Assembly (NCBI RefSeq): GCF_003330725.1
Contig: NZ_CP030840.1
Location: forward strand, 434,001 to 498,000
Direction: 5' to 3'
Source of the DNA: Acidisarcina polymorpha
Lineage (GTDB): Bacteria > Acidobacteriota > Terriglobia > Terriglobales > Acidobacteriaceae
Length of the DNA: 64,000 nt
Shown here piece by piece: positions 19,308 through 33,581 of this stretch. The notes beneath the pieces are model-generated. The model had not been told where the DNA came from. It searched no databases and saw only the letters and a list, made by a program, of their open reading frames with translations. The stretch's first letter is position 1; each line of letters begins with the position of its first letter. The position numbers were made by a program, and so were the translations under genes.

Positions 19308-21065
19308 ATGAGCCTCGATCCAAAAGCAGCGAGTTCCAGCCCAGAAGAACCTCATACAACGCCATTGCCGCCCAAGCTGCTGAAAAATGTCCTTGCTTCC
19401 CGCTTAGACATCGCGAGCCCGCGTTCGCGAAAGAATGCCGCCTCGATGGCGGCGCTCTGCTCCTCGATGGCTGAGGAAGCCAAGCTCATTCAGCAAGGCG
19501 GCGGCCAGAAGGCCGTGGAGGCGCAGCATGCCAAAGGCCGCCTCACCGCGCGCGAACGGGTGGAACTGCTGCTCGACCCAGGCACGACTTTCTTCGAACT
19601 CGCGCTGTTCGCAGCTTACGGTATGTATGAAGAATGGGGAGGAGCGCCCGCAGCCGGGACGCTGACCGGCCTAGGCCGCGTCGCGGGACGCTTGGTCATG
19701 GTCATCGCCAACGATGCCACGGTGAAGGCAGGAGCCTTCTTCCCGATGACCGCGAAGAAGGTCATCCGCGCGCAGACGATAGCGATGGAGAATCGCATCC
19801 CTACGATTTACCTGGTCGACTCGGCGGGTGTCTTCCTGCCGCTCCAGGAAGACGTCTTCCCCGATCAGGATGACTTTGGGCGCATCTTCCGCAACAACGC
19901 GGTGATGTCGGCAATGGGCGTCCCTCAGGTCACCGCGATCATGGGCATGTGCGTCGCCGGCGGCGCGTATCTGCCGGTGATGACTGACACCGTTCTGATG
20001 ACTGAAGGCAGCGGACTTTTTCTCGCCGGCCCGGCGCTGGTGCAGGCCGCAATCGGCCAAAAATATACAGCCGAGGAGCTCGGCGGGGCGGCCATGCACG
20101 CCGAAATCTCCGGCACTGTCGACTTCAAGGAGCCCAACGACCATCTCTGCCTGGCGCGGCTGCGTTCTCTGATCAGCCGGCTCGGCCATCCGCCTTCCGC
20201 CCCATTCGACCGGGCCGACTTCGTGGAGCAGCGCGACGCGCCGCTCTTTCCTGCCCAGGATCTTGATTCGCTGATGAATCCAGAGGCAGCGACGAATGCC
20301 TACGACATGCACGAAATCATCGCGCGCATCGTCGACCGCAGCGAGTTCGATGAATATCGCCCCGACTACGGCCGCACTGTCCTGTGCGGATACGGGCGGA
20401 TCGGGGGCCATTCGATCGGCATCGTCGCTAACCAGAAGGAACACCAGCCGCATACCGCACCTAACGGTGAGAAACGCACCGAATTTGGCGGCGTCATCTA
20501 TGCCGAGAGTGCCGAGAAGGCGGCTCGCTTCATCATGGATTGCAATCAGAACCTGATCCCGCTGATCTTTCTCCACGATGTGAACGGCTTCATGGTCGGC
20601 CGCGATGCCGAGTGGAGCGGCATCATTCGCGCCGGAGCCAAGATGGTCTCCGCGGTCGCGAACTCAACCGTTCCCAAGATCACCATCATTGTTGGCGGAT
20701 CGTACGGCGCCGGCCACTACGCGATGTGCGGCAAGGCTTACGATCCACGCTTCATCTTTGCCTGGCCGACAGCCAAATACGCGGTCATGAGCGGGGCCTC
20801 CGCCGCCAACACTCTGGTCGAGATCAAGATACGGCAACTCGAACGCGACGGCAAAAAACTTAGCGATCCCGAGAAACAAGAGCTCCTGGAGTCGATCAAG
20901 GCCACCTACGAAGCCCAGACAGACTGCCGCTACGCCGCTGCCCGCCTGTGGGTCGATGCCATCATCGAACCAGTCGAAACCCGGACTGCGCTGCTGCTGG
21001 CGCTAGAGGCGGTGGCGCTAAATCCTGATGTGGCCAAGTTCAATCCGGGTGTGATTCAGACCTGA
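19308..21065 (+). CDS. acyl-CoA carboxylase carboxyltransferase (beta) subunit, methylcrotonyl-CoA-type
   Basis: 585 residues with the tandem crotonase-like carboxyltransferase halves. The N-terminal half contains KGRLTARERVELLLDPGT and IPTIYLVDSAGVFLPLQEDVFPD. The C-terminal half contains FGGVIYAESAEKAARFI, PLIFLHDVNGFMVG and the KITIIVGGSYGAGHYAMCGKAYDPRF oxyanion region. Length and motifs fit the methylcrotonyl- or geranyl-CoA carboxylase beta subunit more than propionyl-CoA carboxylase (inference). No biotin-carrying alpha subunit is in the window. The nearby HMG-CoA lyase and enoyl-CoA hydratase support leucine catabolism. ATG at 19308 lies inside a longer frame opening at 19257. Confidence 0.87.
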   Translation: MSLDPKAASSSPEEPHTTPLPPKLLKNVLASRLDIASPRSRKNAASMAALCSSMAEEAKLIQQGGGQKAVEAQHAKGRLTARERVELLLDPGTTFFELALFAAYGMYEEWGGAPAAGTLTGLGRVAGRLVMVIANDATVKAGAFFPMTAKKVIRAQTIAMENRIPTIYLVDSAGVFLPLQEDVFPDQDDFGRIFRNNAVMSAMGVPQVTAIMGMCVAGGAYLPVMTDTVLMTEGSGLFLAGPALVQAAIGQKYTAEELGGAAMHAEISGTVDFKEPNDHLCLARLRSLISRLGHPPSAPFDRADFVEQRDAPLFPAQDLDSLMNPEAATNAYDMHEIIARIVDRSEFDEYRPDYGRTVLCGYGRIGGHSIGIVANQKEHQPHTAPNGEKRTEFGGVIYAESAEKAARFIMDCNQNLIPLIFLHDVNGFMVGRDAEWSGIIRAGAKMVSAVANSTVPKITIIVGGSYGAGHYAMCGKAYDPRFIFAWPTAKYAVMSGASAANTLVEIKIRQLERDGKKLSDPEKQELLESIKATYEAQTDCRYAAARLWVDAIIEPVETRTALLLALEAVALNPDVAKFNPGVIQT

Positions 21066-21181
21066 GAGCGCATGATCTTGGCTTAGCCGCCTCTATACCC
21101 AGCCTATATACCCAACAGCATGGCTTAGGCTCATCGCAAAAGCCCGGAATCATCCGATGGAACAAGGGCGCTGGCTCAAGT

Positions 21182-21619
21182 TCAATCATTCAGCATCAGG
21201 TTAAGGGATTGCGCCAGCGTTCTTTGCTGCGTATCAAAGCTGTAGAATCGGTCTACCCTGAGTTCCAACGCGGTGGAAACATGCAGCAGATCGCCGGTTC
21301 GCGTACCAAGCCGCGCCGTCGTCTCCAGCGCCAGTTTGCGTGCGCGTCCAAAGGCGTCTAGCGGCAAAGCGACCACGTCGAAGACGCCCGCCTTCAGGTC
21401 CTTATCAAACGCCTTCAAGGCCAGGTGAATCTGGGCAGCGGAAGCCTGCTTGCGAAAAAGCCGCAATCGAAGTGCGTTCACGACTTCCAGTTCGCCGAAA
21501 GTGCTGGTGAGAAGAGTGTCCGATATTGAAGCCAATCGCAGGGCCTCTCCGGCAGCGACGGAATGAACGTCGAGACTATAGAGCGAAACCATGAAGCTTG
21601 CGTCCAGATAAATCTTCAA
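21182..21619 (-). CDS. PIN-domain toxin (VapC-like)
   Basis: 145 residues with PIN-domain acidic residues: D6 in IYLDASFMVSL, E43 in FGELEVVNAL, D110 in RTGDLLHVSTAL and D129 in SFDTQQRTLA. Known VapC toxins are ribonucleases, often of tRNA or rRNA. The start is TTG at 21619, whose TTGA overlaps the antitoxin stop by 4 bp, typical of toxin-antitoxin coupling. Located between leucine-degradation-type genes, on the opposite strand. Confidence 0.87.
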   Translation of the reverse strand: MKIYLDASFMVSLYSLDVHSVAAGEALRLASISDTLLTSTFGELEVVNALRLRLFRKQASAAQIHLALKAFDKDLKAGVFDVVALPLDAFGRARKLALETTARLGTRTGDLLHVSTALELRVDRFYSFDTQQRTLAQSLNLMLND

Positions 21620-21867
21620 TAGCGATCACGGTCCTCACGAATCAACTCCGCCCCGCTCACTTCTTGGACCCTATCGCCGTAGATCGAGTGCAACCTGGCC
21701 AAGAAGTCGGGCAATTCCGGCCGAGCATGCGGCTTCTCCGGCACGAGCCGCGCGATCACCTTACGGCGCTTGGTGATATGAATCTCTTCGCCTTGGCTCA
21801 GGAGCCGTTCAATCTTTGGGAAGTCATAGCGGAGGTCGCGAACGGATGCGCTCTTCATGTGATACAT
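21616..21867 (-). CDS. Phd/YefM-like antitoxin
   Basis: 83 residues. The N-terminal half, SASVRDLRYDFPKIERLLSQGEEIHITKRRKVIARLVPEK, has the Phd/YefM layout (short strand, L-R-x-x-F helix, turn, ITKR strand, V-A-R-L-V-P) and would bind DNA as a dimer. The C-terminal part would bind the toxin. The start could be ATG at 21867 or 21858, with no strong SD for either. It overlaps the PIN gene by 4 bp, forming a bicistronic toxin-antitoxin unit. Confidence 0.82.
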   Translation of the reverse strand: MYHMKSASVRDLRYDFPKIERLLSQGEEIHITKRRKVIARLVPEKPHARPELPDFLARLHSIYGDRVQEVSGAELIREDRDRY

Positions 21868-21963
21868 TCTAGCATCACAAACGAGACCATTCCATCTGCG
21901 ATGCCCGACTTTGGTTCCCTACTGGTTATTCCCGCAATCACTCCACCGACGTAAGCTCAAACT

Positions 21964-22362
21964 ATGGCCGCTACCGCATCGACCCTCCCCAAACGTAAGC
22001 CCTCAGCGAGGCGAAAGAGCCGCAAGAAACAATCCCCGGGCTGGATCGCATGGTGGCCGCTCCTGGTTGGCATCGCCGTGACCCCCATTGCCGTCAAGGC
22101 GGCCACGCTCATGGCCTTGACCGGCCCTGATGCCCTGCGCCTGCTCTACCCGTGGATGCTGGTCCCCAAGCTGCATTTCCTCGCACTCTCCGATTCGCTC
22201 GGCGATACGCTCTCACAAGCCATGATGTACCTGCAGTTCCCGCTCTATGGAGTCTTTGCGATGTTCATCCATCGCTCCAAAGGAGCCGCCGCAGCGATCC
22301 TGTGGTTGACGCTGCTCCACCTCATGGCGGTAGGATTGATCTTTGTCGCGGCGCATTCCTGA
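21964..22362 (+). CDS. small membrane protein, unknown function
   Basis: 132 residues. A very basic N-terminus (KRKPSARRKSRKKQ) is followed by three hydrophobic helices at about 30-52, 78-100 and 110-130. This suggests a cytoplasmic N-terminus by the positive-inside rule. No motif recognised. It lies just before the HMG-CoA lyase gene on the same strand (33-bp gap) and may be co-transcribed. Confidence 0.65.
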   Translation: MAATASTLPKRKPSARRKSRKKQSPGWIAWWPLLVGIAVTPIAVKAATLMALTGPDALRLLYPWMLVPKLHFLALSDSLGDTLSQAMMYLQFPLYGVFAMFIHRSKGAAAAILWLTLLHLMAVGLIFVAAHS

Positions 22363-22395
22363 GCGTACTCGCTCCAACGGCAGCATCGAAGTTCC

Positions 22396-23295
22396 ATGAG
22401 AAAGCACAGAACCCCCGCCTTAAAGCTGATCGAATGCCCCCGTGACGCCTGGCAAGCTCTCCCCAGGCCCATTCCCGCCGAAGTCAAGGCCGATTACCTG
22501 CGCCTCTTGATCGCCGCCGGACTGAAGCACATCGACGCCGTCTCTTTCGTATCGGCGGCGGCGGTTCCGCAGATGGCCGACTCCGAACAGGTCTTGAAGT
22601 ACCTCGATGCGGCGGTTCCCGATATGCCCGAGGACGTAGAGATCATCGCCATCGTTGTCAACGAAAAGGGCGCAGAGCGAGCCATCGCTACTGCCGCGGT
22701 GCAAACCCTCGGCTTCCCCTATTCCATCTCGCCCGAGTTCCTGAAGCGCAACCAGAACCAGACGCCGGAGGAATGCCTCGATGTGTTGGAGGCAATCGGC
22801 CAACTCGCCTTTAAAGCCGGCCTGGATATTGTCGCTTACGTATCGATGGCCTTCGGAAACCCCTATGGCGACGCCTATGACACCGAAGAAGTCATCGCCG
22901 CCTGCGATCTGCTTGTCGATATGGGGATTACTCAGATTTCTCTTGCGGATACGGTCGGCCTGGCGACACCGCGCCAGATTGAAGATCTCTCAACCGATGT
23001 GCTGGCGGTCCACGATGACATCGAGATTGGCTTGCATCTTCACGCCCATCCAAATGATGTTGCGCTCAAGGTAGCAGCGGCGTATCGTGCGGGCATAAGG
23101 CGAATGGACATGGCCGTTGGCGGCCTGGGCGGTTGTCCTTTTGCACAAGATGCATTGGTCGGCAACTTGGCCACTGAGTTGGCCATCGCGGAGCTGAAAC
23201 GGTTGGGCGCCGAACTTCCGGCGCTTGCGCCCCTCGATGGGATCATCGCCGCCAATCAGGCCATTGCAGACAAGTTCGGAGCAGCAATTCAGTAA
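22396..23295 (+). CDS. hydroxymethylglutaryl-CoA lyase-like enzyme
   Basis: 299 residues, TIM-barrel DRE-type aldolase. ECPRDAWQ at residues 13-20 supplies the metal-binding Asp17. H214 and H216 in GLHLHAHPND are the metal-binding histidines, where the family usually has H-x-H followed by D or T. GGLGGCPFA around C247 is the HMG-CoA lyase active-site loop. The known reaction splits HMG-CoA into acetoacetate and acetyl-CoA, the last step of leucine degradation. The entry motif ECPRDAW is unusual (normally VGPRDGLQ). It is followed by an enoyl-CoA hydratase gene 40 bp downstream. Confidence 0.87.
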   Translation: MRKHRTPALKLIECPRDAWQALPRPIPAEVKADYLRLLIAAGLKHIDAVSFVSAAAVPQMADSEQVLKYLDAAVPDMPEDVEIIAIVVNEKGAERAIATAAVQTLGFPYSISPEFLKRNQNQTPEECLDVLEAIGQLAFKAGLDIVAYVSMAFGNPYGDAYDTEEVIAACDLLVDMGITQISLADTVGLATPRQIEDLSTDVLAVHDDIEIGLHLHAHPNDVALKVAAAYRAGIRRMDMAVGGLGGCPFAQDALVGNLATELAIAELKRLGAELPALAPLDGIIAANQAIADKFGAAIQ

Positions 23296-23335
23296 CGGCA
23301 CAAGGCAGCGGCCTTATCGGGGGCGAGAGAGAACG

Positions 23336-24154
23336 ATGAGCAAGTACACCACCATCCAAATCTGCGACGACAGCAACGTCAGGACCATCAAGATGAATCG
23401 TCCGGAAAGGCGCAATGCGCTGAATGCGACGATGATCGCCGAACTCATTATTGCGCTCGAACACGCTGCCGACGGACCTTGCGGCGCCCTCATTCTCACC
23501 GGAGCGGGGAAGTGTTTCTGCGCCGGGCTGGACCTCGAAGAGCTTCGGCAAATGGAATCTCGAACCATCGAAGAACATCTTTCCGACGCTGAACAGTTCG
23601 CCAAGCTCATGAGGCTGCTGTACGACTTTCCCAAACCGACCATCGCCGCAGTGAACGGCCCCGCGATCGCCGGGGGCACAGGGTTAGCCACGGTTTGCGA
23701 CTTCACCTACGCCTCTTCCGATGCGACCTTTGGCTATACCGAGGTCCGGATCGGATTTGTGCCCGCCATTGTGTCTTCCTTCCTGCTTCGTCAGTTAGGC
23801 GAGAAGCAGGCCCGCGATCTGTTGCTCTCCGGCAGAATTTTCGACGCCAAAGAAGCGCACCAGCTTGGACTCGTCACACGGATCATCGTCCATCCCCAGA
23901 TTCTGTTGCGGGAAGCGTTTAATCAGGGTCTTTGCCTGCTCAAGAACAGCCCTGAAGCGATGCGCTGGACCAAAGGATTGCTTGGCGAGCATGTCCGCGA
24001 CAGCCTTGATCTGGAGACCGCACGGGCTGCTCAGTGGAATGCCCGCGCGAAGCAAAATGACGATTTCCGCGAGGGCATCCATGCTTTTCTGGAGAAGCGG
24101 GCGCCGCTCTGGCCTTCTCTTCACAAGAAGACCTCGAAGTATCAGCCTGTCTGA
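23336..24154 (+). CDS. enoyl-CoA hydratase/isomerase (possible methylglutaconyl-CoA hydratase)
   Basis: 272 residues, crotonase fold. It contains KMNRPERRNALNATMIAELI, oxyanion-hole segment KCFCAGLDLEEL, and the second site AAVNGPAIAGGTGLATVCDFTYAS followed by FGYTEVRIGFVPA with the usual glutamates. In leucine degradation the equivalent enzyme hydrates 3-methylglutaconyl-CoA to HMG-CoA, the substrate of the lyase encoded next to it. That role is inferred from position. ATG at 23336 is preferred, with a purine-rich GCGAGAGAGA before it; the longer frame from 23225 overlaps the lyase. Confidence 0.9.
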   Translation: MSKYTTIQICDDSNVRTIKMNRPERRNALNATMIAELIIALEHAADGPCGALILTGAGKCFCAGLDLEELRQMESRTIEEHLSDAEQFAKLMRLLYDFPKPTIAAVNGPAIAGGTGLATVCDFTYASSDATFGYTEVRIGFVPAIVSSFLLRQLGEKQARDLLLSGRIFDAKEAHQLGLVTRIIVHPQILLREAFNQGLCLLKNSPEAMRWTKGLLGEHVRDSLDLETARAAQWNARAKQNDDFREGIHAFLEKRAPLWPSLHKKTSKYQPV

Positions 24155-24322
24155 GAACAGCCGGCAAGCATCCGCATTGCTCTTTCTGCTGAACTCCCGA
24201 CGCGGCTCGTAGTCTGAAGGTAACGTGGCGATCGCTTTCCCCTCCGAGATTCCCACAAAGACTGAAGCTCGCTCCTCGCGCAAAAAGGATCGTGGTTTCC
24301 CTCGCCCGCATCAGAACGGGAT

Positions 24323-25345
24323 ATGTCTACTGCATCCACCAACGCAAGCAAAGCTGGCTCCCTCAGCGAAGCGAATCTGACGACTCGTCCACTCGGTGAC
24401 TCCAATCTCCATCTGACCCGCATCGGGTTCGGCGCCTGGGCAACCGGCGGAGGTAACTGGGAATTCGCCTGGGGTGCGCAAGACGATAACGAATCAGTCA
24501 GGACCATAGAACATGCCCTGGATCTCGGCATCAACTGGATCGATACCGCGGCAATTTACGGCCTCGGACACTCGGAAGAGATCGTCGCCAAAGCCCTCAA
24601 GCACGTCGTCAAGAAGCCCTACGTCTTCACGAAATGTTCCATGCGATGGACAGAGGACCGGCAAATCTACCGAAGCTTGAAGCCCGGGTCGATCCAAGAG
24701 GAGATCGAAGCCTCGCTGCGCCGGCTGCGCGTCGATACCATCGATTTGTACCAGATCCACTGGCCCAATCCCGATGACGAGATCGAGGAAGGCTGGGAGG
24801 CGATGGCCAAACTGCAGCAGCAGGGCAAGGTCCGCTATCTCGGGGTCTCAAACTTCAACGTGGATCAAATCAAGCGCGTCCAGAAGATCGCCCCCGTAAC
24901 CTCGCTTCAGCCCCCATATTCGCTGCTGAACCGGAGTGTTGAGGCGGAGATTCTCCCTTATTGCCTGGCGCAAAACATCGGAGTCATCAACTATTCGCCG
25001 ATGGCTTCAGGGCTTCTCAGCGGGAAAATGACTGCCAAGCGGATCCAGCAGATGCCGCAGGACGACTGGCGTAAACGCAGCCCCAACTTCAACGAGCCTA
25101 AGTTATCTCAGAATTTGAAACTGGTTGAGCGTTTAAAGGAAATCGGACAGGAATACGGAGTTGAACCCGGTGCTGTGGCTGTAGCATGGACGCTACAGAA
25201 TCCCGCCATCACGGCTGCAATTGTGGGCGCCCGGCGTCCCGATCAGGTCGACGGCACCCTTGCCGCTGCCGCTCTGGTACTCAAACGGGAAGAAATTGCG
25301 AAGATCGGGGAGTTTATTAATACAACCCAGGGAGCGCGCCAGTAA
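24323..25345 (+). CDS. aldo/keto reductase
   Basis: 340 residues, AKR (alpha/beta)8 barrel. Tetrad: Asp in NWIDTAAIYG, Tyr in the same motif, Lys in YVFTKCSMRW, His in LYQIHWPNPDD. The NADPH-binding end includes SNFNVDQI, YSPMASGLLSGK and AIVGARRPDQV. The type resembles the YghZ/GutM-like group acting on small aldehydes or sugars. The first 20 residues are a low-complexity Ser/Thr extension, so the start may be slightly downstream. It ends at a good intrinsic terminator. Confidence 0.9.
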   Translation: MSTASTNASKAGSLSEANLTTRPLGDSNLHLTRIGFGAWATGGGNWEFAWGAQDDNESVRTIEHALDLGINWIDTAAIYGLGHSEEIVAKALKHVVKKPYVFTKCSMRWTEDRQIYRSLKPGSIQEEIEASLRRLRVDTIDLYQIHWPNPDDEIEEGWEAMAKLQQQGKVRYLGVSNFNVDQIKRVQKIAPVTSLQPPYSLLNRSVEAEILPYCLAQNIGVINYSPMASGLLSGKMTAKRIQQMPQDDWRKRSPNFNEPKLSQNLKLVERLKEIGQEYGVEPGAVAVAWTLQNPAITAAIVGARRPDQVDGTLAAAALVLKREEIAKIGEFINTTQGARQ

Positions 25346-25405
25346 TCTAAATAACAGAGAAGTGCGGTACAACGATTCGAAAATCAGCACTCTCGCTCCG
25401 CACAT

Positions 25406-25434
25406 GGGACGCTTTCAACGGCGTCCCGTTTTTT
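25406..25434 (+). terminator. intrinsic terminator after the aldo/keto reductase
   Basis: GGGACGC (25406-25412) pairs with GCGTCCC (25421-25427) across an 8-nt loop and is followed by a run of six T. Standard Rho-independent form on the plus strand. Confidence 0.8.
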
Positions 25435-25468
25435 CGCTGTGCGTTTAGACTTGCGGTTCTCCGGTTAC

Positions 25469-25993
25469 CTACATTGCGTCGAGAAACTTCGGGAACAGTA
25501 GCGCGGAATGTTCTTGAAAGGTCGAGGTCATTCTCGCCAACATCGCAGTATAGGCGACTGTGGCACGATGAGCGCTGATTCGCGCGGCAACGGATGATTG
25601 CGAGAAAACGTGTTGCGCCAGAGCGATTAGGACACATATGCGAATTTGAAAGGCATCGCTGCGGATGCTCTCCAGCACCTCTTCAGGTATGGCGCCGCGG
25701 TCCGCGTGTTCCGACGCATAGTCCGCTAGTTGAACCAAAACCGGAGCATTGCTGTACATAGCCCACAAACCCTTAGCTCCAGAAATCCGGTCCCATATGT
25801 CTTCGGGAGTAGCGCTGACCTGGTCACTATACAAATATCGCTTGGTAACATCCTCGAAACCCCAATCGTTCGGCCGAAGCTTAACCACGAGTTGGTCCCA
25901 TGTCTCGGCGCGGCGTTTCGATTGACGACTTCTCCAATAACCAGCATAGGCGAGCATGAGAGCGGTAATCAATACCTGGATAAGTGGCAACAT
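25469..25993 (-). CDS. single-pass membrane protein, unknown function
   Basis: 174 residues from ATG 25993. One N-terminal membrane helix (LIQVLITALMLAYAGYW), then a basic stretch and a soluble domain with no motif I recognise (WDQLVVKLRPNDWGFEDV, ISGAKGLWAMYSNAPVLVQLADYASEH). A start at 26047 would add 18 residues and overlap the upstream gene by 41 bp. It is downstream of the polytopic protein at 26007 on the same strand. Role unknown. Confidence 0.62.
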   Translation of the reverse strand: MLPLIQVLITALMLAYAGYWRSRQSKRRAETWDQLVVKLRPNDWGFEDVTKRYLYSDQVSATPEDIWDRISGAKGLWAMYSNAPVLVQLADYASEHADRGAIPEEVLESIRSDAFQIRICVLIALAQHVFSQSSVAARISAHRATVAYTAMLARMTSTFQEHSALLFPKFLDAM

Positions 25994-26006
25994 ATGGTAA
26001 CTTTGG

Positions 26007-26786
26007 TTACTTTCTGGATAAGCGAGCAGCTGCAGCGCGATTTTCACCTGCTACTTCCGCTATTGATATCAGAAAACTAGCCATTTTGGGATTAAATTCG
26101 CGTCTTGCGACCTCTTTTTTCGCCAGGACGTAACTCCAGTAACCTAACGCTACACACCAGCCGACGATTCTCATCTGTTCAAGCAGGTGGTAGCGGTATT
26201 CGTCCCTACCCGTGAAGTGGTGGGTGAGCTCGACGACCAGAATAATTGCAGAATACCCGGCAAACCCAGTTGCGATTTGAAGCACATGGTTTTTCCATCC
26301 GATGCCCAGCATCTGTGAAAATCCCATAATGGAGACGAAGATCACTAAACGCAGGATTGCAAAGGTGAAATTCATCCGTAGAAAATATCTTCCCCACCGA
26401 TTCAGCGACTCCGGGCTTGAATGCGCCGTCAGTAAGATGGCGCCCAGTACCCCGATAACGACAATAAAGCCAAAAAGGATCAGGGCGGATCTCGGCAGCG
26501 ACTTTTTTACTGGACTGACGACGTTGGTTGCAACTTCGAGCAAGATTCCGAGTTGAAGCAGAAACTCCGGCACCGCGTTAGCAAAATAAATGACGAAGTA
26601 GGTTTTCTCGGAGACATGTCGGAAAGACAGCATGATCAACAGGTCCGACAACGATGAATAGAGAATGTACGCTGTAAAAAGAGGAAACGAACGGTCAAAA
26701 CGTCGACGGGCCAATATTAGAAAAAGCGCGAGTTGGCCGAGATCGCTGAACAACAAAAGAGCTACGTCGATGCTGGTTAGATCCAT
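26007..26786 (-). CDS. polytopic membrane protein (about seven helices), unknown function
   Basis: 259 residues with about seven hydrophobic segments, the first at residues 5-27 and the last near 215-233, and a soluble tail of about 25 residues. No transporter, kinase or protease motif recognised. Co-oriented with the protein at 25469, whose start it almost abuts, and with the tandem-repeat secreted protein upstream (27111). The three could form a unit. Confidence 0.65.
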   Translation of the reverse strand: MDLTSIDVALLLFSDLGQLALFLILARRRFDRSFPLFTAYILYSSLSDLLIMLSFRHVSEKTYFVIYFANAVPEFLLQLGILLEVATNVVSPVKKSLPRSALILFGFIVVIGVLGAILLTAHSSPESLNRWGRYFLRMNFTFAILRLVIFVSIMGFSQMLGIGWKNHVLQIATGFAGYSAIILVVELTHHFTGRDEYRYHLLEQMRIVGWCVALGYWSYVLAKKEVARREFNPKMASFLISIAEVAGENRAAAARLSRK

Positions 26787-26898
26787 TCATTGCTCCAGCC
26801 GAAGCTGTGGGGGTGGCGTGGTAACCCCTCCCAGCGAACAGAATACACGGCTTATCTAATTGGAACGCCGCTCCAAACCCGACCCGTCTACTGGAAGA

Positions 26899-27145
26899 TT
26901 ACGCTTGTAACGGCAGGCCCGTTCCCCCAATCACACCGATGCTACGCGTTGGAACCTTCGGCGCTGGGAGGCCAGGGCCGGCTACTTCGATCACACCGAC
27001 GCTGCGTGTCGGAACCTTCGGAGCAGGCAGGCCAGGGCCCGTTCCCCCAATCACACCGATGCTACGCGTTGGAACCTTCGGCGCTGGGAGGCCAGGGCCG
27101 GCTACTTCGATCACACCGACGCTGCGTGTCGGAACCTTCGGAGCA
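26899..27145 (-). pseudogene. out-of-frame remnant of the tandem-repeat protein (3 complete units)
   Basis: In the minus-strand frame ending with TAA at 26899-26901, three full repeat units and the tail GGTGLPLQA are readable, together with a fourth, partial APKVPTRS unit at about 27112-27145. This is in another frame from the upstream protein. It looks like the ancestral C-terminus of the repeat protein, displaced by an insertion at the 27145/27146 junction. It has no start codon or ribosome site of its own. Confidence 0.5.
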
Positions 27146-27575
27146 ACGGCAGGCCCGTTCCCCCAATCACACCGATGCTACGCGTTGGAACCTTCGGCGC
27201 TGGGAGGCCAGGGCCGGCTACTTCGATCACACCGACGCTGCGTGTTGGAACCTTCGGAGCGGGCAGGCCAGGGCCGGCTACTTCCACACCCATGCTGCGC
27301 GTCGGAACCTTCGGGGCAGGCAGGCCAGGGCCAGCGACTTCGATCACGCCCATGCTACGCGTCGGCACCTTTGGCGCGGGAAGGCCGGGGCCAGCTATTT
27401 CGATCACACTCATGCTGCGCGTTGGAACCTTCGGCGCGGGCAAACCAGGGCCGGCTACTTCCACACCGATGCTACGCGTCGGAACCTTCGGCGCTGGAAG
27501 GCCAGGGCCGGCTACTTCGATCACACCCATGCTGCGTGTCGGCACCTTGGGAGCAGGCAGGCCGGGGCCGGCTAT
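26916..27575. repeat. tandem array of about eleven 57-60-bp units
   Basis: About eleven copies of a 57-60-bp unit encoding APKVPTRS on the minus strand. The segments 26916-27025 and 27036-27145 are identical (110 bp, 120-bp offset). The first 101 bp (26909-27009) recur exactly at 27145-27245, an offset of 236 bp, which is not a multiple of three. Three unit lengths lack one codon. Units are contiguous with no unique spacers. Confidence 0.95.
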
Positions 27576-27689
27576 CTGGGGTATAGGCCGGGGAGTAAAG
27601 TGCGTCTCAGAAGCATCCTTAGGAGAGTTAAACAGCAGAAACGCGCTGACTACGGCAAAAACGCTCGAGCGAACAGTCTTGATCGGCAT
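27111..27689 (-). CDS. secreted tandem-repeat protein, unknown function
   Basis: 192 residues from ATG 27689, preceded by GAGGAG at 7 bp spacing, the strongest ribosome site in this region. A probable signal peptide (IKTVRSSVFAVVSAFLLF, residues 3-20) is followed by seven in-frame units of about 20 residues with the core GPGLPAPKVPTRS. Residues after the core vary between MGV, IGV, VGV and MSV. Pro, Gly and Arg are rich and there is no Cys. The frame then shifts out of repeat register and ends at TGA 27111 with the tail LLRRFRHAASV. Each unit ends in a basic P-T-R, a pattern that could be cut by a trypsin-like protease, though this is speculation. Not a family I can name. Confidence 0.72.
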   Translation of the reverse strand: MPIKTVRSSVFAVVSAFLLFNSPKDASETHFTPRPIPQIAGPGLPAPKVPTRSMGVIEVAGPGLPAPKVPTRSIGVEVAGPGLPAPKVPTRSMSVIEIAGPGLPAPKVPTRSMGVIEVAGPGLPAPKVPTRSMGVEVAGPGLPAPKVPTRSVGVIEVAGPGLPAPKVPTRSIGVIGGTGLPLLRRFRHAASV

Positions 27690-28144
27690 GGGAATCTCCT
27701 CAGGTGATATTGTTGAACTTAGTGGCAAATAGGGATGGTTGCAGCGATGTTACCTGACTAATTAGGGAACCGACGCCTTAGGGAACCGACGCCGGTCTAG
27801 CGCATACGTCGGGCAGTGCCGGCAGCCAAGCAGCAGGAAAGTGGAATCGCTATAGCCGAGAGAGGCCGCAACGCCTTCGTTTTTCAGGGATCGTGGCCAA
27901 GGTGGCACGGATCTTCAGTCGTTAATGGTAATCTCGTGTTATCAACATGCATGACTCTAGTACTTCTGACAAGAGCCAAATAGACCAATCTTGTAATACT
28001 GTATTCCGACTTATATCTACGAAAATTACACATTTCCTCTAACCGGTCTATCCTGGTACTTTGAATTTTCTCTTTATGGAACTTCTCGCGCTGCTCCATA
28101 AGGGATATCCGTGGGGCGCCCGCTTGAGGTAATCGGAAAACCTC
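27690..28144. other. 455-bp divergent intergenic region
   Basis: Lies between the repeat protein and the ATP-grasp-like gene. It is AT-richer than average around 27955-28070 and probably holds promoters for both. It contains a perfect 16-bp direct repeat, listed separately. Confidence 0.4.
27762..27793. repeat. 16-bp perfect tandem repeat
   Basis: TTAGGGAACCGACGCC occurs twice back to back at 27762-27777 and 27778-27793, upstream of the repeat-protein promoter side. Possible regulator site or slippage product. Confidence 0.75.
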
Positions 28145-29380
28145 GTGATCCGGAAATTCCGCCAGGATTTCAATCGTCAATATCGACCCGAACTCTACTC
28201 CAACCTCTTGGCCTCGTTGGAAAGAGCAACTGGTGGGCCAATCGAGTTTCGCGTGGCCGAAAGTCCCTGTTTTTTTTCGATGGAATTGATGGAACACATC
28301 GCTGCGATCGGCAGTGAACTCACCCGCAGGCTGGTGGATGATCCTGATTATCTCTGGCGCTCCCGAGCTGCCATTCCAGACGCTTACCGGATGCCGGAGC
28401 AGTCGGAGCATCCGCACTTTATGACTGCGGATTTTGGCCTGGTGCGCACCCCTCAGGGGGAACTCGAACCGAGGCTCGTCGAACTCCAGGCATTTCCCTC
28501 CATCTTTGCCTATCAATGCCTTCTGGCCGAGGCCTATCGCGAAACCTATGCACTCGATGACGGCCTCGATCCGTTCTTGGGCGGCCACACGGAAAACAGC
28601 TTCTGGAGGCTTTTTTCTCGTGTCATTCTTGGCGACCATGATCCTGAAAACGTCGTCCTCAGCGAGGTGGATCCGCTCCACCAAAAGACGCTGCCTGATT
28701 TTCGGCTCACAGCCGACCGTCTCGGCATTTCCATCGTTGATATTTCGGAACTGGTGAAAATCGAGCAGGCTGGAGGGCCGCCGAAACTTTTCCGCCGCGA
28801 TGGGCATCGCCTGGTGCCCGTGCATCGGATTTATAATCGGGCGATCGTCGATGAACTCGTTCGAAGGAACATTCAACTCCCGTTCGACTATCGCGAGCCA
28901 ATCGACGTGGAGTGGGCGGGCCATCCGAACTGGTACTTTCATATCAGCAAATTCTCGCTCCCTTTTCTCCACCATCCCGCGGTTCCTCCTGCCGTCTTTC
29001 TCAATGAATGGCTCGAAGGTAGGGAGCGGGATCGTCTACCCGCCGATCGCGATCTCTTGATCTTGAAACCGCTCTTCTCCTTTGCTGGAAAAGGAATCCA
29101 GTTCGCCCCTTCGGACGAAGATCTGCTCAGCATTCCTGAGCCGGAACGCGGGGGGTACCTACTCCAGGAGAGGGTCCAGTTTGAGCCAGTCATCGACACC
29201 CCTTTCGGCATGACTCAAGCCGAAATCCGAATTCTTTACCTATGGCCCGATGGGGGAGACTTGGATCCGGTTCTATCGTTGATTCGGCTCGGCCGCGGCA
29301 AGATGATGGGCGTAGACCATAACCGGGATCAACAATGGGTCGGAGGATCAGCCGCCTTTTGTCCGCCGCGTGCATCCTGA
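28145..29380 (+). CDS. ATP-grasp-like protein of unknown function
   Basis: 411 residues. The C-terminal half has ATP-grasp-like features: DLLILKPLFSFAGKGIQF (lysine and glycine-rich loop), GGYLLQERVQFEPVID, and FGMTQAEIRILYLW near the end. EVDPLHQKTLPDF, earlier, is acidic and unusual. No signal peptide. It begins with GTG at 28145; an in-frame stop at 28130 rules out an upstream start, and GGAAAA is the only ribosome-site candidate. The substrate is unknown and the fold assignment is tentative. The opposite-strand frame here (27884-28975) is a shadow. Confidence 0.62.
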   Translation: MIRKFRQDFNRQYRPELYSNLLASLERATGGPIEFRVAESPCFFSMELMEHIAAIGSELTRRLVDDPDYLWRSRAAIPDAYRMPEQSEHPHFMTADFGLVRTPQGELEPRLVELQAFPSIFAYQCLLAEAYRETYALDDGLDPFLGGHTENSFWRLFSRVILGDHDPENVVLSEVDPLHQKTLPDFRLTADRLGISIVDISELVKIEQAGGPPKLFRRDGHRLVPVHRIYNRAIVDELVRRNIQLPFDYREPIDVEWAGHPNWYFHISKFSLPFLHHPAVPPAVFLNEWLEGRERDRLPADRDLLILKPLFSFAGKGIQFAPSDEDLLSIPEPERGGYLLQERVQFEPVIDTPFGMTQAEIRILYLWPDGGDLDPVLSLIRLGRGKMMGVDHNRDQQWVGGSAAFCPPRAS

Positions 29381-29609
29381 CGACGCAAACAGTAGCAACC
29401 CTACTCAGCTAAGTCTTTGGGAATTTCTCCGCAGGAGGTACGGCTCGAACACCAGACAGCAGTTATACGGAAAGTGTCTCTCAGGCTTCTACAAACCTGA
29501 TGGGTGGATGCAGATTGCTTTCCCAATGATAGCCGAATCAATTAATTTTGGTGGCCTTGGTCCACTACATGTAAACTTAGGTAACTCGTGATCAACGAGA
29601 AAGACAGTT
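29381..29609. other. intergenic, no supported gene
   Basis: A 73-residue frame (29370-29591) starting with GTG overlaps the end of the ATP-grasp-like gene but has no ribosome site or recognisable pattern. Nothing else seen. Confidence 0.45.
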
Positions 29610-29993
29610 ATGGTAGTAGAAGAGGTCACTTGCTGGATGCTCACCAAAATGGGACCAGAGATAGAACTCGTATCCCTTCCGGAAAATCCAGGAGCGGTGG
29701 AAGTGCGTTGTGCGGTGCGATTTCCCTTGTGTCTGCCGATCCAGGTAATTACCGCCAAAGGGGCTTACGACGCAATCACCGAAAATATCTCAGCCAGTGG
29801 TGTGTTGTTTCAGTCACGCGAAGATCTAGGCGTCGATAGCCGAGTAGAGTTTCTCCTCAAAATGCCTGCCAGCGTGATTGGCGCCGAAGATGACGTGACC
29901 CTTCACTGTGTTGGTAGAGTCGTACGTTCTTATTTGGAACAAGAGCACTATCATGCCGCTGCTGTAATTGACGATTACCGTTTTAGCCACTAA
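29610..29993 (+). CDS. PilZ-domain protein
   Basis: 127 residues with a PilZ-type beta-barrel: RCAVRFPLCLPIQVITAKGAYDAITENISASGVLFQSRE and VEFLLKMP. The [ND]xSxxG motif that contacts cyclic-di-GMP is present as NISASG. The RxxxR element lies before it, with R33 and R37 in RCAVR as the best candidates, so cyclic-di-GMP binding is plausible but unproven. ATG at 29610 is used; an ATG at 29649 is an alternative. The next gene, a LuxR-type regulator, starts 17 bp downstream. Confidence 0.78.
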   Translation: MVVEEVTCWMLTKMGPEIELVSLPENPGAVEVRCAVRFPLCLPIQVITAKGAYDAITENISASGVLFQSREDLGVDSRVEFLLKMPASVIGAEDDVTLHCVGRVVRSYLEQEHYHAAAVIDDYRFSH

Positions 29994-30010
29994 CGCTGTC
30001 TGGCGAGTTT

Positions 30011-30778
30011 ATGGTAACGACCAATACCGAATTCTTCGAGGAGATTCCATCGGAGGACGGCCTTGCGGCTGCCACCCAGAGTCTTCCATTGATCCGTGTC
30101 ATTCTCGCCGACTCTCAGGCGATCTACCGCGTCGGCATCCGCAAGATCTTCGCGTTAGAGGACGATATTCGCGTCGTCGCTCAGGTGGATACGCTCGAGA
30201 GCCTTCATGCCGCAGTCCAGAGATTTCCTTCGGATATTGTGCTGCTCGAAGGCAGCCTCCTAACAGGCAAGACCGATGCCATTCCGGACCTCATGCGGCT
30301 CGCTCCGCAAGCGAAGGTCATCGTTCAGGCCCTGGCGGCGGATGAATCGAATACAGTCGAGTTATACCGGCGAGGGGTGCGAGGCATCATTCCCCGCTCC
30401 ATTTCTCCCGACCTGCTGGTGAAATGTGTTCGCAAGATCGCCCAGGGCGAGACCTGGATCGACAACCAGTCGGTCAATTGGGTGATCGAGGCGTACCGCT
30501 CCAATGCCGCCGCAATTACCAATCCTCGCACTCAGCCCCGGCTCTCTCCGAAGGAACTCTCGATCATCCATTGCATCACGGAAGGAAAGAGAAACAAGGA
30601 GATTGCTTTTCAGATTGGAACCACCGAACAGGTCATCAAGAATTATTTACGCAAGATCTACGACAAGCTCGGAGTCTCCGATCGACTCGAACTCGCGCTC
30701 TACTGTCTCCATCATCACTTGATACCAGATGGCGCCTCTTCGGCAGCGAAGCCGGCCGACAAGCTGGGAAAGATCTAA
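30011..30778 (+). CDS. LuxR-type response regulator with a degenerate receiver
   Basis: 255 residues. The N-terminal receiver-like domain keeps one acid (D34 in ILADSQ), but the phosphoacceptor aspartate is replaced by E80 (DIVLLEGSLL) and the conserved Lys appears as R129 (GIIPRS). A C-terminal NarL/LuxR helix-turn-helix spans about 177-237 (LSPKELSIIHCITEGKRNKEIAFQIGTTEQVIKNYLRKIYDKLGV). Loss of Asp, and of the Lys that closes the pocket, suggests phosphorylation-independent action, with Glu mimicking the phosphorylated state. No kinase gene is adjacent. It follows the PilZ gene closely. Confidence 0.87.
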   Translation: MVTTNTEFFEEIPSEDGLAAATQSLPLIRVILADSQAIYRVGIRKIFALEDDIRVVAQVDTLESLHAAVQRFPSDIVLLEGSLLTGKTDAIPDLMRLAPQAKVIVQALAADESNTVELYRRGVRGIIPRSISPDLLVKCVRKIAQGETWIDNQSVNWVIEAYRSNAAAITNPRTQPRLSPKELSIIHCITEGKRNKEIAFQIGTTEQVIKNYLRKIYDKLGVSDRLELALYCLHHHLIPDGASSAAKPADKLGKI

Positions 30779-30824
30779 CCGGTCACGCCGTAAGGCGCTG
30801 TATGGTTTGTCCCGCTCTGAATAT

Positions 30825-31298
30825 CTAAGCCGCGATCCCTTGTCGAATCTCTTCCAGCAGTTCTATCAAGCACCGAAGTTTTTCTTCTGTCATGTGGCCC
30901 AGCATCGACTTTGCCGAGGCATCGACGACCGGATCCAATTGGGCCAGGACCTCCAGACCGGCCGAAGTAATTCGCGAGTAGACCACCCGCCGGTCCCGGT
31001 CATTGCGATGGCGCTCGATAAGCGCTTCGCGCTCCAGGCGCTCGAGCAAACGGGTGATATCCGGATCGCGGCTGACCATCCGTTCTCCAATCTCACTACA
31101 TCGAAGACCCGGCTCGCCGGCGCCTCGTAAGATTCTCAACACGTTGTACTGCGGCGCAGTCAACCCGCGCGGCTTAAGAATTTGCTGGATCAGGTGCAGC
31201 ATAAGGCCGGAGGTCCGGTGGATGTTTAGGATCGTCTCTTGTTCCAGACCAGAAAACGGCTTGTTCTGCTTAATTTCTTCCTGGAGTCTGGCTCCCAT
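30825..31298 (-). CDS. MarR-family transcriptional regulator
   Basis: 157 residues, winged helix of MarR type. A long N-terminal dimerisation helix is followed by LTAPQYNVLRILRGAGEPGLRCSEIGERMVSRDPDITRLLERLEREALIERHRNDRDRRVVYSRITSAGLEVL. The wing basic residues (RNDRDRRVVYSRIT) are intact. No redox-sensing cysteine of the OhrR type is obvious. It lies downstream of yceI on the same strand (94-bp gap), so the pair may be co-regulated. Ligand unknown. Confidence 0.9.
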   Translation of the reverse strand: MGARLQEEIKQNKPFSGLEQETILNIHRTSGLMLHLIQQILKPRGLTAPQYNVLRILRGAGEPGLRCSEIGERMVSRDPDITRLLERLEREALIERHRNDRDRRVVYSRITSAGLEVLAQLDPVVDASAKSMLGHMTEEKLRCLIELLEEIRQGIAA

Positions 31299-31392
31299 CC
31301 TCTACCCTCGATTGAATCGCCCTACGGAGCAGGCAGAACCCGCTCCGGCGATCTCATACGGCACGCTTTTGATTCAGATTGGAACGTGTTGG

Positions 31393-32001
31393 TTATTGCT
31401 TGACGATCTCGACGTCCAGTTCGACTTTGATGTCGTCGCCAACTACGGAGTCCCCTGACTTCAGGCTGCCGCTCCAAATGAGTCCGAAGTCCTGGCGGTG
31501 AATCGACGTAGTCGCTGAGAATGCAATGCGTGTCTTGCCCTGAGGATCAACCTGTTCTTTGCTTGGCCCGTCGAGGTCAAGAGTGACGCTTTTGGTGACG
31601 CCATGCATGGTCAAATCGCCAATCAATTGCTTCTTGCCGCCGTCATCGGTCAGTTTCTTGCTCACGAAGTTCATCGTCGGGTATTTGGCTGCGTCGAAGA
31701 AGTCGGGACTCTTCAGATGATCATCACGCTTCGAGTTGCCGGTGTCGACGGTGGTCACGTCGATGGTCGCATTGACGCTGGATTTGCCCGGGTCTTTTTC
31801 ATCAAGGTTGACCGTGCCCGTCACTCCGCCGAATCGACCGTGGACGTTGGAAATTCCCATATGCTTGACGGTGAAATCCGCTTCGCTGTGAGCGGGATCG
31901 ATCTTCCAGGTCGAGGTTTGTGCCTGCGCGATAGCGGTTCCCGCTACCATCCCAACGATAACTAAAAACTTCGATAAACCAGCCTTACTGAAAACCTTCA
32001 T
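31393..32001 (-). CDS. YceI-family periplasmic protein
   Basis: 202 residues. Signal peptide 1 to about 25 (FLVIVGMVAGTAIAQAQ), then the lipocalin-like YceI barrel: TWKIDPAHSEADFTVKHMGISNVHGRFGGVTGTVNLDEKDPGKSS, GDLTMHGVTKSVTLDL and FGLIWSGSLKSGDSVVGDDIKVELDVEIVKQ. Known members bind isoprenoid (polyprenyl) lipids. It is divergent to the MFS transporter and upstream of a MarR regulator on the same strand. Confidence 0.92.
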   Translation of the reverse strand: MKVFSKAGLSKFLVIVGMVAGTAIAQAQTSTWKIDPAHSEADFTVKHMGISNVHGRFGGVTGTVNLDEKDPGKSSVNATIDVTTVDTGNSKRDDHLKSPDFFDAAKYPTMNFVSKKLTDDGGKKQLIGDLTMHGVTKSVTLDLDGPSKEQVDPQGKTRIAFSATTSIHRQDFGLIWSGSLKSGDSVVGDDIKVELDVEIVKQ

Positions 32002-32157
32002 CGTTCCAGCCTCCCGCCCCTTGTCTGGTAAGCAACAGGGTGCTTCCTAAAGATGAACCACAGAGATAATCGTTGCAACAATTATTTGCATATTCGCGCG
32101 ATATTCCTGGTCCTGTGCGTCTCTGGTATGCTTCGACGCATCCCATAGCAATCTTTC

Positions 32158-33387
32158 ATGAAATGGCATAACTACTTTCGCTCCATCAGCAGCGCCCAGC
32201 GCCACGCCTTCTTCGCCTGCTTGCTCGGTTGGACGATGGATGCGTTCGACTTCTTCATCCTGGTCTTTTGCGTTTCCGCGATCGCCAGGGACTTTCATGC
32301 CCGTGTGCCGGCGGTCACCCAGGCAATTTTTCTCACTTTAGCGTTTCGTCCAGTTGGCGCTTTGCTCTTCGGTGCGCTTGCGGACCGCTATGGGCGGCGT
32401 CCTGCCTTGATGATCAACATCGGCTGCTTCTCGGTTCTGGAACTGGCCTGCGCCTTTGCTCCGTCTCTCCATGTTTTGCTCATTCTGCGAGCGCTGTTTG
32501 GGGTCGCCATGGGCGGCGAATGGGGAGTAGGAGCGGCCCTCGCCTTGGAGAGTCTGCCGAAGGAGAGCCGCGGTTTCTTCTCCGGTCTGTTGCAGGAGGG
32601 ATATGCTTTGGGCTATCTTCTCGCTGCTCTCGCCTACACTTTGCTCTTCCACTTCATCGGATGGCGCGGCATGTTCATCGTAGGGGCGGCGCCGGCCGTG
32701 CTGGTCGCCTATATCGGCTTGAAGGTGGAAGAATCCCCGGTCTGGGTGGAAGGACGGATTCGACAGGCCGCCGCCACGGTTCGGCCCACCTTCGGCGCCA
32801 ACCTCCGGCGTTACGGGCTCACGTTCCTGTTTCTCATTTTGCTGATGACCGGCTTCAATGGCTTCTCCCATGGAACTCAGGACTTGTACCCCACTTTCCT
32901 GGAGCATGACCATCTGCTCTCACCGGCCGCAACCGGCAGCATCGCCATCGTCTACACCATAGGCATGATCCTTGGCGGGATTACGGTCGGCACACTTTCA
33001 GAGCGGTTTGGCCGCAAACCTGCAATCATCGGCGCCGTTCTGCTTTCGATTCCCATCATCCCCCTGTTTGCGCTCTCCCATCCCCTGTGGCTTCTCATTC
33101 CAGGAGCATTTCTCATGCAGTTTATGGTCCAGGGAGCCTGGGGAGTGATCCCTGCCTACCTGAGTGAACTCTCACCCGAACCCGTGCGCGCCACCTTTCC
33201 AGGCCTGGCCTACCAATTGGGCAACTTGATCACGTCGCGCAACTCGGTCTTGCAGGCTGAGGCTGCGGTTCGCTTCGGCGGATACCGAAAGGTCCTTGCC
33301 CTGACCGTGCTGATCGGCGCGGTCTATCTGGCGCTGGTTACCTCGTTCGGACGGGAATCTCGAGGGGCCGATCTGTCCGCCAGCTGA
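32158..33387 (+). CDS. MFS transporter (sugar acid / sialate / aromatic acid type)
   Basis: 409 residues with twelve helices. The first inter-helix motif, GALADRYGRRPALM, is of MFS type A, and GCFSVLELACAF and GAALALESLPKESRGFFSGLLQEGYALG are further landmarks. Closest in feel to the NanT/ShiA/aromatic acid:H+ symporter group (inference). No regulator lies next to it in the same direction, but the YceI and MarR genes lie on the other side of the divergent promoter region. Substrate unknown. Confidence 0.87.
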   Translation: MKWHNYFRSISSAQRHAFFACLLGWTMDAFDFFILVFCVSAIARDFHARVPAVTQAIFLTLAFRPVGALLFGALADRYGRRPALMINIGCFSVLELACAFAPSLHVLLILRALFGVAMGGEWGVGAALALESLPKESRGFFSGLLQEGYALGYLLAALAYTLLFHFIGWRGMFIVGAAPAVLVAYIGLKVEESPVWVEGRIRQAAATVRPTFGANLRRYGLTFLFLILLMTGFNGFSHGTQDLYPTFLEHDHLLSPAATGSIAIVYTIGMILGGITVGTLSERFGRKPAIIGAVLLSIPIIPLFALSHPLWLLIPGAFLMQFMVQGAWGVIPAYLSELSPEPVRATFPGLAYQLGNLITSRNSVLQAEAAVRFGGYRKVLALTVLIGAVYLALVTSFGRESRGADLSAS

Positions 33388-33581
33388 AATGCTTCGGAGC
33401 TTGTCGGCCGGTTCCGATACGAATGTGTCGGCTCACAGCCCCCTTCGTTCTTGCGTCCAAAGGATGGTCGAGGTGAAGTAAGGAAGATCGACGGGGCCCG
33501 CACGCCGGAGAACCTCGATGTCGCTTCCGATAAACAGTGCTACTCTGACTCCGCTGGGGACCTATTCAGGATGCTGCTGTC

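Follow-up and report, generated by a model that had tools for sequence, protein, structure and literature searches.

Tandem-repeat genes for secreted proline-rich peptides upstream of seven-helix membrane protein genes in Acidobacteriaceae: a candidate peptide-receptor module

An array of short proline-rich units, a seven-helix transmembrane (7TM) protein and a third protein are encoded one after another on the same strand in Acidisarcina polymorpha SBC82. Our main reading, to which we give a probability of about 0.5, is that of a multi-copy secreted peptide ligand, its cognate 7TM sensor and a membrane-anchored helical-bundle partner. The pairing of peptide and 7TM protein looks like an undescribed system of peptide signal and receptor. 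Sequence searches give no homologue of the repeat ORF, and yet it is no orphan, as it belongs to a positional family recognised through the neighbouring 7TM gene. The computation establishes the linkage and order of the genes, the secretion-type N-terminus, the repeats, purifying selection, divergence between species, the predicted 7TM topology and the pattern of variability along the 7TM protein.

The window, that is, the whole stretch of 64,000 nucleotides analysed, covers positions 434001-498000 of the 7,112,011-bp chromosome contig; the other contigs of this genome have 62,450, 108,812, 196,405 and 121,048 bp. SBC82, whose genome is described in PMC6252331, is a tundra-soil acidobacterium of the family Acidobacteriaceae. 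The array and its partner genes have the following features.

27696..27701, minus strand: ribosome-binding site GAGGAG, read directly
27111..27689, minus strand: precursor ORF as assembled (ATG at 27689, stop at 27111), 192 residues, secretion-type N-terminus and seven units
27145..27245, minus strand: inner copy of a 101-bp exact repeat, with the frame broken at its end (27145/27144)
26899..27144, minus strand: array continued in another frame, with a partial core, three full cores, the C-terminus GGTGLPLQA and TAA, from the sequence
26909..27009, minus strand: copy of the 101-bp exact repeat close to the 3' end of the gene
26007..26786, minus strand: 7TM protein of 259 residues, regular partner of the array, predicted N-out/C-in with seven transmembrane helices and a C-terminal helix, from homology and a model
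25469..25993, minus strand: third gene, one N-terminal transmembrane helix and a helical bundle; start codon of the relatives at 25993, longer GTG frame from 26047

The precursor has a K/R-containing start, then the hydrophobic stretch SSVFAVVSAFLLF, then seven units of 19-20 residues each with the core GPGLPAPKVPTRS. The in-frame cores start on the minus strand at 27569, 27509, 27452, 27392, 27332, 27275 and 27215; the intact out-of-frame cores start at 27099, 27039 and 26979. All ten cores read GPGLPAPKVPTRS. A sequence-only reading of this DNA had already described the GAGGAG site, the seven in-frame copies, and three further full units plus a partial one in another frame up to TAA at 26899, and all of this is correct. 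Its probable signal peptide agrees with the expected charge and hydrophobicity, but the strict [AVSG]xA site was not found in the N-terminus of the window precursor. The units were also called near-identical, which is true of the protein. At the DNA level, however, all seven in-frame cores are different: 11 of 39 columns are variable, ten of them third positions and one a leucine first position, and every change is synonymous. Thus the peptide and not the DNA is conserved among the cores, which fixes strand and frame and argues for a coding function. The plus-strand reading (a 305-aa ORF at 26790-27707) was rejected, since it is in the minus frame that the differences between cores occupy third codon positions and leave the protein unchanged. 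The array is far beyond chance: its TRF scores are 765-811, and none of 154 scans elsewhere in the window (both strands of 77 stretches, each of 800 nt) reached its protein-repeat score. Recent or ongoing expansion, as proposed before, applies to units 7-10 only, where exact repeats occur; units 1-7 are alike in protein but not in DNA. A 16-bp sequence is present in two exact copies at 27762-27793, upstream of the precursor gene. No tRNA was found in the window, and no Rfam family in its positions 20000-35000.

Searches with the repeat protein itself yielded no convincing homologue in 99 genomes of relatives, three of which gave matches at E <= 0.01. The matches in one of these (G099) are CRISPR arrays (L004, L007, L008), false in translated searches; the match in another (G039) is in a different frame and overlaps a glycoside-hydrolase-like ORF; the third is in G088 (E 0.00998). 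With the first 75 residues as a query against 398 genomes of the family, 82 other genomes matched at E 5e-4 to 0.1; these matches are scattered, in many cases have internal stops, and were taken as chance. A pattern search of public genome contigs gave 596 matches and no relative of the repeat protein. The sequence-only reading had proposed a Pfam search of the full translation; no Pfam, NCBIfam or PADLOC family fits it, the best Pfam match (E 0.061) being below the cut-off. That reading overlooked the partner genes and the family, which are found from the 7TM side.

We compared 114 loci with a 7TM gene: the window, eight of 13 loci of a first set, and loci L063-L167 (25 profile-found loci and 80 stretches). 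From the first 13 loci the copy of the window (L033), a duplicate (L045) and weak matches (L039-L041) were left out. The 114 loci were picked by rank of the 7TM match and by sufficient upstream DNA, so that the set is biased to strong 7TM relatives, and two of them (L038 and L107) are one locus. In 67 of the 114 loci the 800 nt that precede the 7TM gene contain a tandem-repeat ORF on the same strand. None was observed downstream of the 7TM gene (0 of 113 loci), nor in the 154 scans of the window outside the array. At 34 further loci a short single-copy secreted proline-rich ORF is found upstream (35 were called, and that of L136 was rejected). In three loci (L080, L112, L167) the peptide was recognised by eye only. 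Ten of the 114 have no peptide, including L160 with 106 nt upstream, L136 where the sequence ends 594 nt upstream, and L090 with a gap of N. For L036 and L095 the wrong frame was picked; these two were kept in the array, single-copy, codon-change and two-frame counts and left out of the cleavage test.

Examples of arrays are GPMTPAPTPPGPTFA in 19 copies (L134), GPTLPMPNPKDIHFVAEN in 16 (L106) and FGPGGGMPSPIGQTGLIA in 12 (L089); other units are IPMSPFPTKTAA (L142) and AKGIIGSLPRPAGTLQ (L044), and a single-copy peptide is MNKSIRNLALTAAVLFSTAAPMFANMTGGNPHPQVASVALSLGDYASIVISVFGL (L108). The commonest 6-mer has from 2 to 19 copies per array. All 87 precursors with an identifiable start (53 arrays and 34 single-copy ORFs) have K/R before a hydrophobic stretch, and 76 of the 87, the window's not among them, contain the strict [AVSG]xA motif. 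About 15-50 residues are left after the signal peptide in single-copy members. Proline makes up 24% and charged residues 6% of 95 pooled peptides. Twenty further stretches, mostly extra modules of the same genomes, have a peptide in 19 cases and the third gene in all 20; one of them (L201) repeats L079. Among named public contigs, from genomes partly the same as above, arrays were found upstream in 23 of 30 usable loci, with two more truncated. They include those of the isolate Occallatibacter savannae AB23 and of a Terracidiphilus MAG.

Cleavage between the units at AxA or dibasic sites is not supported. Signal-peptidase-like sites are not in excess in the units (32 of 58 against a shuffled mean of 33.1), and a dibasic pair occurs in none of 65 arrays. 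Hence the chain may stay uncut.

Several members of the family deserve mention. Two plasmid modules of the SBC82 genome itself (L196 on C5 and L197 on C2) have the single-copy peptides VGGGAPRPVKG and VGGTNPRPGRG, each with a third gene. In L087, L072, L198 and L206 two tandem near-copies of a single-copy peptide gene precede one 7TM gene, which is a possible step between the single-copy state and an array. Two modules of one genome (L202 and L203 of G329) have nearly the same two-copy peptide QVMGGSNPRP and are an exception to the rule of one peptide per module. In L210 (G140) the array unit, NPWGSVAEGPAGTVR, contains less proline than those of other family members.

The 7TM gene starts 112 nt after the last stop of the array (TAA) on the same strand, and no terminator-like site was found between them on the minus strand. 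A profile of eight 7TM relatives (A1) matches 221 of 398 genomes of the family at E <= 1e-20, of which 128 match at E <= 1e-38 and the rest have more distant 7TM proteins. In a phylum-wide sample 34 of 396 genomes contain a match at E <= 1e-15, and all 34 belong to the same family, Acidobacteriaceae. Two 7TM matches per locus, that is, tandem 7TM genes, were observed in L036, L042, L065, L073 and others. A distant weak branch of 7TM proteins (L185-L195) has the third gene in none of 11 loci; a short secreted peptide is present upstream in eight of the 11, in all eight cases with two cysteines, e.g. ending SAMPIPMCDPDDPNACGMR, and in L193 and L194 this two-cysteine peptide takes the form of two tandem genes.

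AF2 modelled the 7TM protein of the window from 105 rows (pLDDT 91.8, pTM 0.84) as seven long helices followed by a helix at the C-terminus (233-258). The family-average charges of loops 1, 3, 5 and the C-terminus are +2.95, +2.5, +0.88 and +1.32, whereas the N-terminus and loops 2, 4 and 6 are near neutral (-0.04 to +0.64); the positive loops and C-terminus thus predict the N-out/C-in orientation. Helix columns have an entropy of 2.68 bits in the outer halves and 2.01 bits in the inner ones (permutation p 1e-4); the outer half is the more variable in six of seven helices, and helix 4 is opposite. The outer loops have 3.1-3.4 bits and the inner loops 1.4-2.2 bits; the short N-terminus, at 1.95, is not variable. 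A receptor whose ligands change while its output stays constant would be expected to show this pattern, although the pattern falls short of proof. Conservation of the inner side occurs in transporters too.

Foldseek with this model gave no PDB match at E <= 0.001; the best matches are GPCRs and a proteorhodopsin (E 0.055-0.063). Among the matches listed by VIA-align, all 50 are GPCRs or proteins with a GPCR-like part (LYCHOS), with Z 12.9-11.3, rmsd 3.3-5.2 and 180-215 residues (for the top one, Z 12.9, rmsd 4.2 and 198 aligned residues); at Z under about 13 helical bundles may match by common arrangement alone. The modelled likeness to GPCRs may therefore be one of arrangement only. In a Pfam scan of 105 members of the 7TM family a GPCR model was touched by one only (viral BILF1, E 0.0032), and the 7TM profile against PDB chains gave one match at E <= 1, a phosphodiesterase, and no GPCR. 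There is no conserved lysine of helix 7 among the columns conserved in at least 75% within 196-222. No Pfam or NCBIfam model was matched by more than two of the 105 members, no histidine kinase or regulator Pfam domain was found in these members or in the third protein, and the viral structure library contained nothing similar to the model at E <= 0.001.

In 101 of 113 loci the 7TM gene is followed by a homologue of the third gene, encoded in the same direction, at most 101 nt from the 7TM domain in 75 of these 101 and up to 1.3 kb further on in the others. The model of the window protein (pLDDT 86.6) has one N-terminal membrane helix and a helical bundle. Its matches in the PDB, namely FAT, catenin, fumarase and designed bundles (Z <= 8.9), were set aside as uninformative.

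The wider neighbourhood is conserved in part of the loci. Occurrence was counted in short flanks of 113 loci.

24323..25345, plus strand: aldo/keto reductase, convergent, marks the orthologous locus; 39 of 113 loci
28145..29380, plus strand: ATP-grasp-like gene, divergent to the array; 23 of 113 loci
29610..29993, plus strand: PilZ-domain protein; 14 of 113 loci
30011..30778, plus strand: LuxR-type response regulator; 8 of 113 loci

Thus, in part of the loci, an orthologous chromosomal place has retained these neighbours while its peptide was exchanged. The product of 28145-29380 is presumably ATP-grasp-like, as judged from motifs (the KPLFSFAGKGIQ stretch); it has no significant Pfam or NCBIfam match. 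Its homologues, 42-62% identical, are present in 12 of 60 other genomes searched. The LuxR-type regulator adjoins the PilZ gene and the ATP-grasp-like gene. Its receiver motif DIVLLEG has Glu in place of the expected phosphorylated Asp, and the relative in L047 also has LLEG.

The peptides vary widely between species, and close species can have the same peptide outright. Within arrays the unit is under purifying selection: the codon differences between copies in 67 arrays are 1049 synonymous against 151 non-synonymous. Third positions account for 1083 of 1320 base differences, and the synonymous share is 87%, where random single changes would give 28%. The repeat finder demands protein identity, which biases this share upward; the comparison of the window cores is free of this bias. 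In 48 of 95 rows a peptide 5-mer is common to the row and its nearest relative by 7TM, compared with a mean of 4.9 and a maximum of 16 after shuffling. However, when the nearest 7TM protein is less than 55% identical, a 5-mer is common to 3 of 26 only, which is chance level (shuffled mean 1.4, maximum 6). Since linked genes diverge together even without interaction, the sharing of 5-mers falls short of proving that peptide and 7TM protein are matched. The multi- or single-copy state follows the 7TM tree, with 16 changes among three labels (shuffled mean 35.0, none of 200 shufflings as low); L080, L112, L167 and L136 were relabelled by hand for this count. Several different modules per genome occur, some of them on plasmids. 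Paralogous modules pair consistently, 7TM with peptide: the two modules of G017 have their sisters in G127 both in the 7TM tree (support 98 and 99) and in peptide sequence, the paired peptides being GPGDPNPLGH/GPGDPSPIGH and LPRPAGTLQ/IPRPAGTL.

The frame break in the window array calls for separate comment. The exact 101-bp repeat at 26909-27009 and 27145-27245 had been noted before and is confirmed; the offset of 236 is 2 mod 3, the match can be extended on neither side, and the frame is lost at 27145/27144. There are further exact matches within the array, of 94 bp at offset 116 and of 110 bp at offset 120. The gap between the in-frame stop and the 7TM gene, 324-327 nt, is the largest among 102 called precursors (the next is 289), and TAA at 26899 therefore looks like the old end of the gene. 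The history suggested by the sequence-only reading, a recent inward duplication of the 3' end that truncated the protein and left the downstream array as a relic, is a fair reading of this. Exact repeats of 101, 94 and 110 bp are what a recent duplication leaves, and the out-of-frame cores are undamaged. On the other hand, the assembly combines 454 reads, 549 nt long on average, with MinION reads, joined by npScarf and polished by Pilon (PMC6252331), and the average 454 read is shorter than the 659-bp array. Sequences end at most 800 nt upstream of the 7TM gene in 17 loci, and 14 of these are arrays, so arrays often break assemblies. The commonest 7-mer occurs in two frames in three of the 67 arrays, and the two others (L035 and L159) contain runs of N, so that the window array is alone in changing frame between its units without such a run. 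Given the 454/MinION hybrid assembly, the undamaged out-of-frame units and the rarity of two-frame units, a mis-join is no less likely than a real truncation and is, in our judgement, somewhat the better bet; the real duplication is a serious contender at somewhat less than even odds. Either the array has been shortened to seven units or the assembly is in error, and the conclusion about the family stands in both cases. Seven units would still suit a normal member, as other arrays have 2-19 copies.

For the module as a whole, we infer binding, processing, signalling and output along the following lines. The repeat ORF would be the ligand gene, encoding an exported protein in which one short proline-rich peptide is repeated many times. 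Either after release or as part of the chain, this peptide would bind the variable outer half of the 7TM helix bundle, and the conserved inner half would pass the state on to the third protein, a membrane-anchored helical bundle. Copy number might raise dose or valency, with a single copy kept in some lineages. As lineages, and paralogous modules within a genome, have peptides of their own, the system would report kin or density. In a broader and tentative form, which we hold to be distinctly less probable than not, the Acidobacteriaceae would possess a bacterial counterpart of eukaryotic peptide-hormone systems: multi-copy prepropeptides that are secreted, rich in proline and quick to change from species to species, dedicated 7TM receptors of GPCR-like architecture and a membrane-anchored helical-bundle transducer, often as several private channels per genome, some on plasmids.

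Other functions of the same genes were weighed against the ligand-sensor reading. Structural proteins are typically repetitive chains rich in Pro, Gly or Ala, and the proline-rich chain (24% of the 95 pooled peptides) could be an extracellular or periplasmic structural, spacer or matrix protein which the 7TM and third proteins anchor, export or assemble. Such a protein might have a place in the saccular chambers of A. polymorpha, which have fibrillar envelopes; the authors of PMC9693552 report the chamber envelope as cellulose. Single-copy members, with their 15-50 residues or so, are short for a fibre, and a spacer would need composition only, whereas the sequence here varies between species and yet is selected within arrays. 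We regard a structural role as unlikely. The earlier suggestion of a peptide precursor or a surface spacer thus shifts towards the former, in view of the regular secreted proline-rich partner upstream of 7TM genes, and the spacer is now less favoured. Somewhat less likely again is a toxin-immunity pair, in which the peptide would act on close kin as a bacteriocin and the 7TM protein would protect the producer. Arms races would explain the variability and the pairing by type, and also the presence of several different modules per genome, some of them plasmid-borne. However, immunity would presumably need neither the third gene nor a conserved inner half of the 7TM protein. The peptides, proline-rich and with few charges (6%), are unlike most membrane-active bacteriocins, and the four window proteins matched no family of PADLOC-DB, which covers phage defence and not bacteriocins.

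The ATP-grasp-like gene at 28145-29380 raises one more possibility, namely that an enzyme encoded nearby modifies the units as core peptides, as in RiPPs, where multi-core precursors are known. This gene is divergent to the array here and recurs at 23 of 113 loci, and arrays adjoin it also in L047 and L053. Against this, a chain exported by a signal peptide would be out of reach of a cytoplasmic enzyme; the gene is absent from the short flanks at 90 of 113 loci; and no repeat was detected near the ATP-grasp homologues of relatives at 9 of 11 loci scanned (L056 lies outside the scan). A RiPP-like role is accordingly improbable, more so than the structural and the toxin-immunity readings.

Searches of an open-access library listed no earlier account of such a module. 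No Pfam or NCBIfam family, and for the window proteins no PADLOC-DB family, fits the three module genes; the matches that do occur stay below threshold and concern no more than two members. The module occurs widely among the Acidobacteriaceae, a family common in soils, whose cell-cell communication is, to our knowledge, little known. About 100 loci with predicted peptides provide candidate ligand-receptor pairs, and synthetic peptides would allow a direct test of peptide signalling in this family. Should the 7TM proteins prove to be peptide receptors, a GPCR-like receptor architecture with peptide ligands would exist in bacteria. The case also illustrates why such genes escape notice: the peptide is found via its neighbour and not by similarity, and the arrays break genome assemblies.

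Several known systems resemble the module in part. In the autoinducing peptide systems of Gram-positive bacteria (Agr, ComX, RRNPP) the gene for a secreted peptide lies beside the sensor gene; both evolve fast and pair by type. Here, too, the peptide gene adjoins the gene for the 7TM protein, the presumed sensor, and pairs with it by type. However, no kinase domain is recognised in this 7TM protein, many of the peptides are multi-copy, and no dedicated protease or exporter is among the three module genes. Bacterial multi-core RiPP precursors likewise have several core peptides per chain; here, in contrast, export is by a signal peptide and no consistent modifying enzyme occurs in the short flanks examined. 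Microbial rhodopsins share the seven helices and the N-out orientation predicted here, and 4kly and 4hyj are among the Foldseek matches; the 7TM family differs from them in having no conserved helix-7 lysine and hence no retinal site. The likeness to GPCRs consists in a predicted N-out/C-in 7TM bundle with a C-terminal helix (helix 8), a variable outer side and a conserved inner side. Unlike a true GPCR family, however, the 7TM proteins have no sequence relation that could be found, and arrangement alone may be shared.

The alpha-factor of yeast acts through the 7TM receptor Ste2, and the gene for this receptor is not next door to the precursor gene. Fungal Kex2-processed repeat proteins (KEPs), including the yeast alpha-mating factor, are described in PMC7329392 as having a signal peptide and tandem near-identical short peptides, highly diverse between species. 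They are eukaryotic and cut at Kex2 sites, whereas the present precursors are bacterial, have a dibasic pair in 0 of 65 arrays, and have no known sequence relation to them. The present precursors are similar in having a secretion-type N-terminus followed by tandem short repeats that are diverse between species. By analogy, the fungal repeat precursors are the nearest counterpart of the module in architecture.
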